DNA of 64,000 nt from Collinsella tanakaei (GTDB taxonomy: Bacteria; Actinomycetota; Coriobacteriia; Coriobacteriales; Coriobacteriaceae), in NCBI RefSeq assembly GCF_030373545.1, contig NZ_JAUDCO010000003.1, forward strand, positions 186,001 to 250,000, given 5' to 3'. The notes below the pieces were generated by a model, which was not told the DNA's origin, did no database searches, and saw only the letters and a list, made by a program, of their open reading frames with translations. Below, in pieces: positions 52,261-55,858 of the stretch. Made by a program: the position numbers and the translations under genes. Within the stretch, counting starts at the first letter, position 1. Each line of letters starts with the position of its first letter.

Positions 52261-52512
52261 CTACTTGTCGTCCTCGGGCAGCGAGCCGAACGCCTCGATG
52301 TACTCGTCGTTGTCCATCCAGTCGATGATGTCGCCGGGCTTGCAGTGAAGCGCCTCGCACATCGCGGTCAGCGTGGAGAAGCGGATGCCCTTCAGGCGAC
52401 CGGTCTTGATGCGGGAGACGTTGACCGGGGAGATCCCGATCTTCTGGGCGAGCTCGAGCGAGGACATTTTGCGGTCGGCCATCATGCGGTCGAGTCTCAT
52501 GACGATAGGCAC
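52261..52512 (-). CDS. Cro/C1-type helix-turn-helix regulator
   Basis: An 83-aa protein made almost entirely of an XRE/Cro HTH domain: MSSLELAQKIGISPVNVSRI then LKGIRFSTLTAMCEALHCKPGDII. Small regulators of this YozG-like class are often encoded right after a DUF2975 membrane protein, as here (11-bp gap). The start is a GTG at 52512 with AAGGTGG upstream. Last gene of the radical SAM-peptide cluster as read on the strand. It may control the cluster or respond to its product. Confidence 0.88.
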   Translation of the reverse strand: MPIVMRLDRMMADRKMSSLELAQKIGISPVNVSRIKTGRLKGIRFSTLTAMCEALHCKPGDIIDWMDNDEYIEAFGSLPEDDK

Positions 52513-52523
52513 GTGATACCACC

Positions 52524-53045
52524 TTAGACGATGCTGTCAGAATCCTTCTTTAGCATTCTACCGTATTCGAATACCCCTGCAAGTGCAAAGAACATTGCAG
52601 CAAACATTAACAATTGGAGGTCGATTTCTGGATGAACGGCTGCAGGTTGGAACCATGAAACCGGACTGCCGAGCGAATCGACTGTGGGGGCAATTAATCT
52701 GACTAAGAACATGCATAGGTTCAAGAACGCCAGGGAGATTAATCGCTCGCTCTGGTCGCGTGTAAATATCTCGCTGTTCTTGCCAATATCCCAGATAAAG
52801 TGACTGAAAAGCCAGGCTATCGCTGCAGTCAAAACGGCATTGAAGAGCGTAAATGTGAGATATTGGCAATTTGCCAGAGAAATGCTCTCCCCCATCACCC
52901 CTGGAAGCGCGCATAGCGCCGCCGTCGTCGATAAAACGGCAGCAAAGATAGAAAGGGCGCCAACGATTTTTGTGCCCCACATGATTACAAGGAGCTGCCG
53001 AGGTTTGGGTACAAGTGGAACATGCTGCTTTAGCCTGCGTTTCAT
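52524..53045 (-). CDS. DUF2975-like membrane protein
   Basis: A 173-aa protein with four membrane segments (about residues 22-45, 60-82, 105-125 and 140-162), resembling the DUF2975 family that pairs with XRE regulators in Firmicutes and Actinobacteria. Function unknown. Base composition is strikingly lower in G+C than the neighbours: by hand count 27 and 28 of 60 bases in the two lines 52681-52800. This suggests transfer. The ATG at 53045 has only a weak GGGGG site. It lies 24 bp after the small peptide gene. Confidence 0.78.
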   Translation of the reverse strand: MKRRLKQHVPLVPKPRQLLVIMWGTKIVGALSIFAAVLSTTAALCALPGVMGESISLANCQYLTFTLFNAVLTAAIAWLFSHFIWDIGKNSEIFTRDQSERLISLAFLNLCMFLVRLIAPTVDSLGSPVSWFQPAAVHPEIDLQLLMFAAMFFALAGVFEYGRMLKKDSDSIV

Positions 53046-53069: not shown

Positions 53070-53147
53070 TTAGTAGCCAATCCTTATTCCGAAAACATCA
53101 AAGCACAGATCGCGGCTATCGGGCTTTTTCTCAATCGCAAACAGCAT
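53070..53147 (-). CDS. Candidate RiPP precursor peptide (25 aa)
   Basis: A 25-codon frame right after a SPASM radical SAM gene. The peptide begins MLFAIEKKPDSRDLC and ends VFGIRIGY, with one Cys, several aromatic residues, and Gly-Tyr at the C-terminus. The ATG at 53147 has AGAAAGG nine bases upstream. An earlier ATG at 53156 overlaps the radical SAM stop as ATGA and would add MIA. Precursors of mycofactocin also end in a Tyr that the maturase attacks, but no sequence relation is claimed. It is AT-richer than the maturase gene. No leader cleavage site is apparent. Confidence 0.6.
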   Translation of the reverse strand: MLFAIEKKPDSRDLCFDVFGIRIGY

Positions 53148-53152
53148 GGCAA

Positions 53153-54394
53153 TCATCCTTTCTGGGATGCGAGGGCCGACACGAACGCGTCGACCGCCTT
53201 CTCGAGTGCCCGGTCGTAATAGGCGCAGTAGGGATCCGCAGCGTCCAAGCGACCGGTTGCACGGTAAGCGCGCGCTCGACAACCACCTCCGCACAGGTAG
53301 CGCTTACCGCACGATGAGCATGTCGCTATCGTATCGACCGCCGGCAGGTCGAACGAGCGCAAGGCGGCGCACACATCCTCGGCGGCATCGACGAACGCGT
53401 CGCCGAGCCGATAGTCCCGAGCATGCAGCATATGGCAGGGGTAGATCGATCCATCCGACGCGACGCTGACGCCCTTCCGCCCCGCTCCGCACGAGGTGCG
53501 GGCGGCAAGGGCCGACGCGGCATCGAAGCGCCCGTCGTAGTCGACACCCTCCGCGGACGCACCGACCGCAAAAAGGGCATCGGCAAGGCAGCCAAGACAG
53601 GCGTCGTCCGGCCACAGGTCCCCGATCTCTGCGCGCGAACCGCTCAGCAGACTGAAGCTGACCGTCGCGTCCAGCGAACGGGCAAGCTCGACATACGCCG
53701 CGACGTCGGCAGCGTTTTTCGCATGCAGCGTAGGAAGGATGTGCGGTCGGATACCCGCTCGCGCGATGGCGCGAACCGCTTCGACAAGCCGGTCGAACAG
53801 CTGCTCCTGGCGCACATAGGCGCAGGCTTTCACCGAGGTCCCGTCAAACGAGACCGAGACGACGTCCATCAGTCCCGCCAGCTCATCCAAGCGCTCAGGG
53901 GTGCACAGCGTTCCGTTGGTGAGCACCGCCACCGAGGTGATGCCCGCATCGCGAGCCGCGCGGACGACGGCGGGAAGGTCGCGGCGCGCAAAGGGCTCGC
54001 CGCCCGATATCACCAGGCGCTCGACGCCCAGCTCGGCCAAAAGGACCACCGCGTGCTCGAGCTGGGCGCACGTCGGGTCCAGCGCACGGTTGCGGTTGGC
54101 GTCGCTCGAATAGCACCCCGTGCACGACAGGTTGCAAGTATTGGTCACATGGAGATAGGCCGACGAAAGCCGGGGCTGTGCCGCGGCGGCAGCGAAGAAC
54201 CCTTGTGCGGAGAGGTATTCGACCAGTGGGGCACATGATGGCGGAATCTCTGCTGGTGCCACATCGCGCCGCATCAGCTCGACGCACAGGGCATCGCCCT
54301 CAGGCGTGAGGCCGACGATGCAGCCCGTCGCCACGTTTCCCACCACGGGGATTCCACCCAGATCAAAGCGCGCAACCGATGCGTTGAATCTCAT
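53153..54394 (-). CDS. SPASM-domain radical SAM peptide maturase
   Basis: A 413-aa radical SAM enzyme. Cys87, Cys91 and Cys94 (TNTCNLSCTGCYSSDANR) bind the catalytic cluster; ISGGEPFARRDL is the SAM glycine motif. The C-terminal SPASM region has seven Cys (302, 320, 359, 362, 368, 372, 390) for two extra Fe-S clusters. Residues 1-75 resemble a PqqD/RRE peptide-binding domain. Such enzymes install C-C or thioether links in small peptides; the peptide frame just downstream is the obvious substrate. No anaerobic sulfatase is near, which argues against a sulfatase-maturase role. ATG at 54394 with a CGGAGATTGG leader. Confidence 0.9.
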   Translation of the reverse strand: MRFNASVARFDLGGIPVVGNVATGCIVGLTPEGDALCVELMRRDVAPAEIPPSCAPLVEYLSAQGFFAAAAAQPRLSSAYLHVTNTCNLSCTGCYSSDANRNRALDPTCAQLEHAVVLLAELGVERLVISGGEPFARRDLPAVVRAARDAGITSVAVLTNGTLCTPERLDELAGLMDVVSVSFDGTSVKACAYVRQEQLFDRLVEAVRAIARAGIRPHILPTLHAKNAADVAAYVELARSLDATVSFSLLSGSRAEIGDLWPDDACLGCLADALFAVGASAEGVDYDGRFDAASALAARTSCGAGRKGVSVASDGSIYPCHMLHARDYRLGDAFVDAAEDVCAALRSFDLPAVDTIATCSSCGKRYLCGGGCRARAYRATGRLDAADPYCAYYDRALEKAVDAFVSALASQKG

Positions 54395-54487: not shown

Positions 54488-55858
54488 CTACTCCTGCAGG
54501 CGGACAAGCACGCCGGCGACCGTCATCGTCTCGTCGCTCGGCGAGCCGAACAAAAACGGCTCCTCGGTATAGTCGATCGAAAGCGAGACGACCAGGTTTC
54601 CGTCGAGCCCCACGACACCGGTGATCGACGCCGTGCCCGCACCGCCCGTGCTCGTGCCCTCGCCGGCAAACGTATACGACTGCCCGTCGCCCTGACGATA
54701 GGCGGCCGCGTCGTCGGTCGGCTCCGCGGGGGCGAGCGTGCACTGGAGCGTTCCACTCACCGAAGCGGCGCCGAAACCCGGGGTCGATGCGCGGTACTCG
54801 ATGGCAAACGTGCCCGATTGCTCATCAAACCCCAACAGCGTGACGTCCGTCAGCGCGCCCGTGTCGCCGTCGCCCGGCGCATATGCACCCTCGAGAGCCG
54901 CCGCGTCGTAGGTGACCGTCCGCTCGGATGCGCCCTCGGAGCGCGCCCACGCCGTTCCGTCAAAGGTATAGGTGTAGGGCGTCGATACCGTGCTTGCGGC
55001 AAACCAGAGGTCAAACGTGCGCTCGGCGGTATAGGTGCACGTTTGCGCAGCGGCATCGAAGGCCGGATCGAATCCGTCCGGGAACTCGTCGTCAACCGTC
55101 ACGCCGGCGATCGCCCGCGTGGTCGCAGAGGACGCGACGACCGCACCCGACCAGCCGGAATCGGTGGCGGGCGCGTTTTTCAGCTCGGAATAGCGGGCCC
55201 TCTCAGATGACCGGGCAAGCTTGATCGTCGCGTTCACCTCGGAGGAGAAGCTTTCGTTTTCGAGCCGGGCCGTCACATCGGCAATGGAGGACCCGTCGTC
55301 GTCTGTCTGAACCGAAACGACCTGAACGTCCTCGAGGGCATACGGTGAGGGCTCGACGTAATCGTCGGATGCGAAGCCGTCCATAAACGACGTGTCCGCC
55401 TCGAGCACCTGGGTGACGACGGTCGCGTCCACGCGCGTCAGCGACGAGATGCCCCACCATGCCGCAAGACCGATCAGCACGAGCGCGACGGCGGCGCCGG
55501 CGGCGATCAGGACGCGACGGCGCGGAAAGCGCGGGGCGTCGGGCAGCGCGGCATTCTCCGACGTCTCGGTCGATGTCGTTGCCGTCTGCTGGGCTGCGAC
55601 GCGCAGGCTCGCCGGCATCTCCTGCGTGCCGCCGGAGCGCGTCGCCTCGGTGAGCACCGCGGTCGTGGCAGCCGGCATGAGCAGGGTCTCCATGGCCTGG
55701 TCGCGCTCGCGCATGTCCTGGACGGCAAGCGCGGCGCGCTCGCATGCGTCGGCAAACGAGGGAGTGCCCGTCTCAGGCGTCGCGGGCGTCGCGGTCACCG
55801 CTTGCGTATCGGCAGCATCGACGGGAGCCGACGCGTCCTCGCGCTGCATATCGCTCAT
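54488..55858 (-). CDS. Single-pass membrane protein of unknown function
   Basis: A 456-aa protein with an acidic, disordered cytoplasmic N-terminus (about 110 residues), a basic stop-transfer RFPRRRVL, one membrane helix (about 115-138), and a 320-residue extracellular part. The outer part is Thr/Ser/Asp-rich and mostly beta, with no Cys pair apart from two isolated Cys and no cell-wall sorting signal. Repeats of the type DATVVTQVLEADTSF to YVEP suggest a surface domain built like those of other actinobacterial hypothetical proteins. The ATG at 55858 has GGGGGTTG upstream. I do not recognise a family. Confidence 0.78.
   Translation of the reverse strand: MSDMQREDASAPVDAADTQAVTATPATPETGTPSFADACERAALAVQDMRERDQAMETLLMPAATTAVLTEATRSGGTQEMPASLRVAAQQTATTSTETSENAALPDAPRFPRRRVLIAAGAAVALVLIGLAAWWGISSLTRVDATVVTQVLEADTSFMDGFASDDYVEPSPYALEDVQVVSVQTDDDGSSIADVTARLENESFSSEVNATIKLARSSERARYSELKNAPATDSGWSGAVVASSATTRAIAGVTVDDEFPDGFDPAFDAAAQTCTYTAERTFDLWFAASTVSTPYTYTFDGTAWARSEGASERTVTYDAAALEGAYAPGDGDTGALTDVTLLGFDEQSGTFAIEYRASTPGFGAASVSGTLQCTLAPAEPTDDAAAYRQGDGQSYTFAGEGTSTGGAGTASITGVVGLDGNLVVSLSIDYTEEPFLFGSPSDETMTVAGVLVRLQE

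Follow-up and report, generated by a model that had tools for sequence, protein, structure and literature searches.

Does the 25-codon frame that follows a SPASM radical SAM maturase gene in Collinsella tanakaei encode a peptide, is that peptide the substrate of the maturase, and what might be made from it? The locus is on the minus strand of a 64,000-nucleotide stretch of contig NZ_JAUDCO010000003.1, referred to here as the window, and has the following features.

53153..54394, minus strand: radical SAM/SPASM peptide maturase, 413 aa, ATG start (open reading frame, profile matches, homologue alignment and structural comparison)
54206..54394, minus strand: RRE/PqqD-like N-terminal element of the maturase, residues 1-63 (predicted fold)
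54113..54136, minus strand: CxxxCxxC SAM-cluster motif, residues 87-94 (invariant in 82 homologues)
53225..53491, minus strand: SPASM region, residues 302-390, with seven invariant cysteines (Pfam match and homologue alignment)
53157..53163, minus strand: ribosome-binding site AGAAAGG of the peptide gene (sequence; Shine-Dalgarno-like sites before 79 of 80 peptides)
53070..53147, minus strand: putative precursor peptide gene, MLFAIEKKPDSRDLCFDVFGIRIGY plus stop, 25 aa (homologues and substitution pattern)
52524..53045, minus strand: DUF2975-like multi-pass membrane protein, 173 aa (homologues at the equivalent position; relatives match DUF2975, the window copy has no Pfam match)
52261..52512, minus strand: HTH_26 (Cro/CI type) regulator, 83 aa, GTG start (PF13443, E=7.5e-21; homologues at the equivalent position)

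The peptide frame runs from an ATG at 53147 to a stop codon ending at 53070. A sequence-only reading of this DNA had described it as overlapping or abutting the maturase gene, with its start either in an ATGA at 53156 or at the ATG at 53147. The frame abuts the maturase gene, the ATG lying 5 nt beyond the maturase stop, and does not overlap it. Homologues begin at the same MLF, which makes the ATG at 53147 the likely start; the ATGA start, which would yield a product beginning MIAMLF, was ruled out as the likely start on the same ground. The ribosome-binding site previously proposed before the frame is AGAAAGG (53163-53157), and its spacing to the ATG is suitable.

Homologous maturase loci were collected from Coriobacteriia and Bacillota, giving a set of 82. 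A peptide of the same family, here called the MLF family, was present in 76 of them, mostly just downstream of the maturase. Three of the six peptide-negative loci (L011, L078 and L111) run off contig ends, with the first 12 peptide residues still visible at L011, and a fourth (L116) has a peptide copy in place that carries a one-base frameshift, with LCVIIGGILIGF in the next frame. The sole genuine absences among the 82 are L095 and L103, which have no peptide nearby. When the 25-aa sequence was searched alone against 60 relatives, as the sequence-only reading had proposed for homologues of the maturase in other Coriobacteriia, matches were found directly 3' of three other Collinsella maturases (genomes G016, G035 and G028), and the first 12 residues were found at a contig end beside a fourth (G023). 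A strict motif search returned 52 matches in the 35 kb just downstream of maturases, none within maturase gene bodies (102 kb searched) and a single one in the 152 kb further downstream, so the proximity of peptide and maturase is far beyond chance; 8 further matches fell in 2 kb upstream, where peptide-first loci place the peptide. In independent close pairs, third codon positions take 97 of 165 substitutions (p=2e-11). By these comparisons the 25-aa frame is a genuine gene. The sequence-only reading had named homologous maturases without a nearby peptide, and a frame without codon-level conservation, as the outcomes that would count against it; the co-occurrence and the third-position bias described above are the opposite of both.

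Family members share the pattern MLF-x(n)-C-φ-x-φ-G-x(n)-(C)-φ-x-φ-G-φ and are mostly 21-38 aa long. The peptides of L120, L122 and L137 reach 51-64 aa owing to a long C-terminal tail beyond the second C-φ-x-φ-G unit; this tail may be a follower segment that is removed later. The first Cys is found in every intact family peptide. Two-Cys members include MLFYSDVDPKAICYPIGFNGSCFAIGI from Paraeggerthella and MLFATKKTEAKPNCVSVGFYVCVSYGKDW from Lysinibacillus. The Collinsella and Olsenella-like peptides keep the first Cys and have Gly, Pro, Arg or another residue at the position of the second, as in CVEIFGIIIGT and in CFDVFGIRIGY of the window. Conservation of the FGIRIGY end, which the sequence-only reading had suggested looking for, takes the form of the φ-x-φ-G-φ pattern. 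Scans of five peptides with NCBIfam and Pfam gave no matches. Collinsella stercoris (G028) carries two divergent cassettes (L083 and L089) with different one-Cys peptides.

The MLF start is present in all peptides except those of two near-identical loci, which begin MQF from a GTG. Formylated Met-Leu-Phe is the classic ligand of formyl-peptide receptors. The MLF start is also conserved in soil Bacillales, which argues that it is kept through the maturase and not through a host.

The SAM-cluster cysteines of the maturase are C87, C91 and C94 and the SPASM cysteines are C302, C320, C359, C362, C368, C372 and C390. All ten, as picked out in the sequence-only reading, were recovered and are invariant across the 82 homologues, and the Pfam Radical_SAM and SPASM models both match above their gathering scores, placing the enzyme in the SPASM radical SAM class. 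The best NCBIfam model is StsB, the streptosactin maturase (NF045574, 124.5 bits), but the window maturase falls below the cut-off of every family listed: 625 for StsB, 265 for mycofactocin (TIGR03962, 87.1 bits), 381 for PQQ (TIGR02109, 85 bits) and 425 for the SCIFF maturase (TIGR03974, 60.8 bits). The top models for the Lysinibacillus homologue are CbpB (TIGR04163, 110.5 bits, cut-off 375) and PapB (NF047865, 109.1 bits, cut-off 340). PADLOC matches to viperin were rejected, being confined to the shared radical SAM core.

The structural model of the window maturase (pLDDT 93.9, pTM 0.91) has a predicted β-β-β-α-α N-terminus of RRE-like form, with strands at residues 7-12, 15-20 and 25-28 and helices at 31-42 and 52-63, all at high pLDDT. 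The closest solved structures are CteB (5why, E=1.1e-18, TM about 0.6) and SuiB, with SkfB near behind; these three are RiPP maturases. ChlB, anSME and PqqE are further near structures. The match to the RRE-bearing CteB extends over the full length. The PqqD-like N-terminus of the sequence-only reading thus stands as a predicted fold and does not stand as a profile match, Pfam PqqD giving no match to this region. The model supports its assignment as an RRE-like, putatively leader-binding element. At L121 a natural read-through joins maturase and peptide; an AF2 model of this fusion, with the TAG taken as Q, has a predicted four-residue strand at MLFC, at a pLDDT too low (below 50) to count as evidence.

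Peptide type and maturase phylogeny proved to be closely related. One group of the maturase tree (support 96/99) contains all 25 one-Cys peptides and no two-Cys peptide, and the one-/two-Cys label changes 4 times on the tree, compared with 21-25 times when shuffled, the extra changes being caused by loci scored as peptide-less. Tracking of this kind would be expected of an enzyme and its substrate.

Gene order indicates that the unit in Coriobacteriia is a four-gene cassette of maturase, peptide, DUF2975-like membrane protein and HTH_26 regulator, usually in that order. A minority of loci (L093, L098, L100, L110, L115, L118 and L136) have the order peptide, DUF2975-like, HTH, maturase, and in both orders the peptide is directly upstream of the DUF2975-like gene. 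The HTH_26 assignment of the window regulator is secure (PF13443, 74.6 bits against a gathering score of 22). The window membrane protein has no Pfam match, and its DUF2975-like label rests on relatives: against a gathering score of 27 for PF11188, the Lysinibacillus relative scores 35.4 bits, and in four Coriobacteriia relatives DUF2975 is the best match at 16.8-19.1 bits. Pairwise comparison across 55 loci gave median identities of 42% (maturase), 20% (membrane protein) and 51% (HTH protein). The DUF2975-like protein diverges fastest, which would suit a protein that follows changes in its ligand but may simply reflect weak constraint. The sequence-only reading had recognised no protease or exporter beside the peptide, and we likewise recognised no leader peptidase or dedicated exporter in the Coriobacteriia cassette; it had not mentioned the DUF2975/HTH_26 partners, the conserved Cys or the transporter-linked relatives in Bacillota. 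In those relatives (L019-L025), and also at L117, the peptide, often in two copies, is followed by ABC transporter genes, and DUF2975 and HTH genes are also found upstream at L020 and L021. L117 (G290) is a Coriobacteriia locus of the Bacillota type, with two tandem MLF peptides and then ABC transporter genes, without DUF2975/HTH.

Of 398 Coriobacteriia genomes sampled, 67 (about 17%) encode the maturase, as do 13 of 67 genomes of the family sample. The system is rare in Bacillota, with the maturase in 3 of 399 genomes of the Lysinibacillus class and 2 of 391 of the Paraclostridium class, query genomes included. Searches of plasmids and viral contigs revealed no copy. Upstream of the cassette in the window is a gene for a 456-aa protein (54488-55858, minus strand) that contains a hydrophobic segment and matches no Pfam family above threshold; its homologues occur in 11 of 41 Collinsella genomes, some of them adjoining the cassette or its empty site. 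Between this gene and ftsE, several Collinsella species have the full cassette, G018 and G036 have a DUF2975-HTH pair without maturase or peptide (L157 and L159), and G013 has nothing, the flanking genes being about 220 bp apart. The HTH proteins of L157 and L159 are about 90% identical to that of the window and the membrane proteins only about 30%. L095 (G213) and L103 (G378) have kept maturase and HTH and lack the peptide and the DUF2975-like gene, which may represent either decay or a peptide encoded elsewhere in the genome.

Several characterized systems were compared with this one. Streptosactin is the small product of a SPASM sactisynthase and has two un-nested rings, Cys25-Ser28 and Cys31-Gly34 (PMC8172795). 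Its system (GggA/GggB, StsB family; GGG subfamily of the streptococcal RaS-RiPPs) supplies the best NCBIfam match of the window maturase, and its rings resemble the two un-nested C-φ-x-φ-G units of the two-Cys members, for which streptosactin is, by analogy, the nearest chemical precedent. However, its rings are of the CxxG/S type whereas CxxxG spacing would apply here, its cluster encodes a protease of its own and regulators other than DUF2975/HTH_26, and the score of the window maturase is far under the StsB cut-off. The SCIFF/ranthipeptide enzyme CteB, whose chemistry is thioether formation, shares the RRE, radical SAM and SPASM architecture as the closest solved structure, but where SCIFF precursors have six cysteines in about 45 residues, the peptides here are 21-38 residues long and in most cases have one core cysteine or two. 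CbpB and PapB are likewise peptide-modifying SPASM enzymes, but the Lysinibacillus homologue is far under both cut-offs and the peptides match no NCBIfam or Pfam model. Thuricin Z/huazacin was rejected as a counterpart of the Bacillota peptides, as it has four thioethers and a two-maturase cluster (PMC8172795).

We consider it probable that the locus as a whole is a four-gene RiPP cassette in which the 25-aa precursor is modified by the maturase. Within that reading, the peptide is very likely the substrate of the maturase, as the sequence-only reading had proposed and as both the co-occurrence in 76 of 82 loci and the codon-level conservation support. The N-terminal, MLF-containing segment would be the leader, recognised by the RRE-like N-terminus of the enzyme, which would then introduce a crosslink in the C-terminal part, CFDVFGIRIGY. 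The reaction that we favour, with rather less confidence, would join Cys15 through a thioether to a carbon of a residue further along the peptide, with Gly20 and Gly24 as candidates and an expected mass change of -2 Da. Two un-nested rings would form in two-Cys relatives (C-φ-x-φ-G ... C-φ-x-φ-G). The short hydrophobic product would probably be freed by housekeeping protease and export functions and act at the membrane, where the DUF2975-like protein may bind or neutralise it while the HTH_26 protein controls the operon.

This division of labour is modelled on the membrane protein SdpI, which confers protection from the SDP toxin and whose own repressor is encoded alongside it (PMC6818787). 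The B. subtilis SDP toxin with SdpR/SdpI is alike in wiring only: a hydrophobic peptide, a protective membrane protein and a co-encoded repressor. No radical SAM enzyme is known to take part in SDP production. By this analogy a role of the DUF2975/HTH pair in immunity or sensing is plausible, although we would put it at slightly below an even chance.

Some observations do not sit easily with the main reading. They are the lack of a leader peptidase or exporter in the Coriobacteriia cassette, the two loci with maturase and HTH and neither peptide nor DUF2975, and a pLDDT below 50 for the peptide part of the L121 fusion model. The residue four after the Cys varies in one-Cys peptides, and the acceptor is therefore not evident. 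No shared operator was found when one was looked for upstream of the Collinsella maturases. The DUF2975/HTH pair is, in addition, not exclusive to the pathway, because such pairs stand alone in L157 and L159.

The peptide could be a non-toxic signal that controls its own operon via DUF2975 and HTH_26, and we regard this as unlikely though the strongest of the alternatives. Its constant linkage to a membrane protein and a regulator in Coriobacteriia, at loci without classical bacteriocin export genes, would suit a signal; however, no operator or target genes were identified, and in Bacillota the peptides accompany ABC transporter genes, often without DUF2975/HTH, in a bacteriocin-like arrangement. 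The modification itself could also be something other than a Cys thioether: the φ-x-φ-G-φ end might be epimerised, or crosslinked through carbon-carbon or other bonds, and the Cys might have another role. Peptides without the second Cys still have this end, and other bonds are formed by SPASM enzymes, among them SuiB, to which the window maturase is structurally close. Against this are the first Cys of every intact family peptide and the thioethers formed by the nearest NCBIfam and PDB matches, StsB and CteB, and we judge the proposal a little less likely again. That the maturase acts on another protein, and that the peptide is a separate membrane-active, toxin-like molecule neutralised by DUF2975, is highly improbable: the peptide-free maturases of L095 and L103 would fit, but peptide and maturase are jointly lost in L157 and L159, are linked in Bacillota with no DUF2975 nearby, and co-vary in type. 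Least probable of all is that the short frame serves as a coupling ORF through which translation of the membrane protein gene behind it is set, with a peptide sequence of minor importance that is no maturase substrate. Its position directly before the DUF2975-like gene in Coriobacteriia might suggest this, but MLF, Cys and Gly are conserved at the amino-acid level with third-position bias, peptide type matches the maturase tree, and Bacillota loci pair peptide and maturase away from any DUF2975 gene.

Searches of paper texts for the peptide strings found none, and the radical SAM and sactipeptide literature on Coriobacteriia taxa, searched mostly in papers available without subscription, held nothing on the MLF family. 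PMC7738495 concerns SCIFF peptides. The MLF precursor family is apparently undescribed in the literature searched. Radical-SAM RiPPs are already known; the precursor family and its DUF2975/HTH_26 partnership appear to be new. Precursors of mostly 21-38 aa are easily missed by gene callers.

One-Cys and two-Cys putative substrates on a single enzyme tree form a natural panel with which the specificity of ring formation becomes testable, and the conserved coupling to DUF2975-like and HTH_26 proteins offers a testable function for two uncharacterised families. More speculatively, and as a proposal that we think unlikely to hold in full, the cassettes may represent a new RiPP class of gut Coriobacteriia, whose tiny MLF peptides would each carry one or two small rings, un-nested and formed on C-φ-x-φ-G units, and would be sensed at the membrane by a DUF2975 protein controlling an HTH_26 regulator. 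Collinsella, Olsenella, Eggerthella and Paraeggerthella are common gut Coriobacteriia, and if the membrane-sensing reading is true, the peptides would be the first ligand for DUF2975/HTH_26 pairs, for which we found no assigned function.
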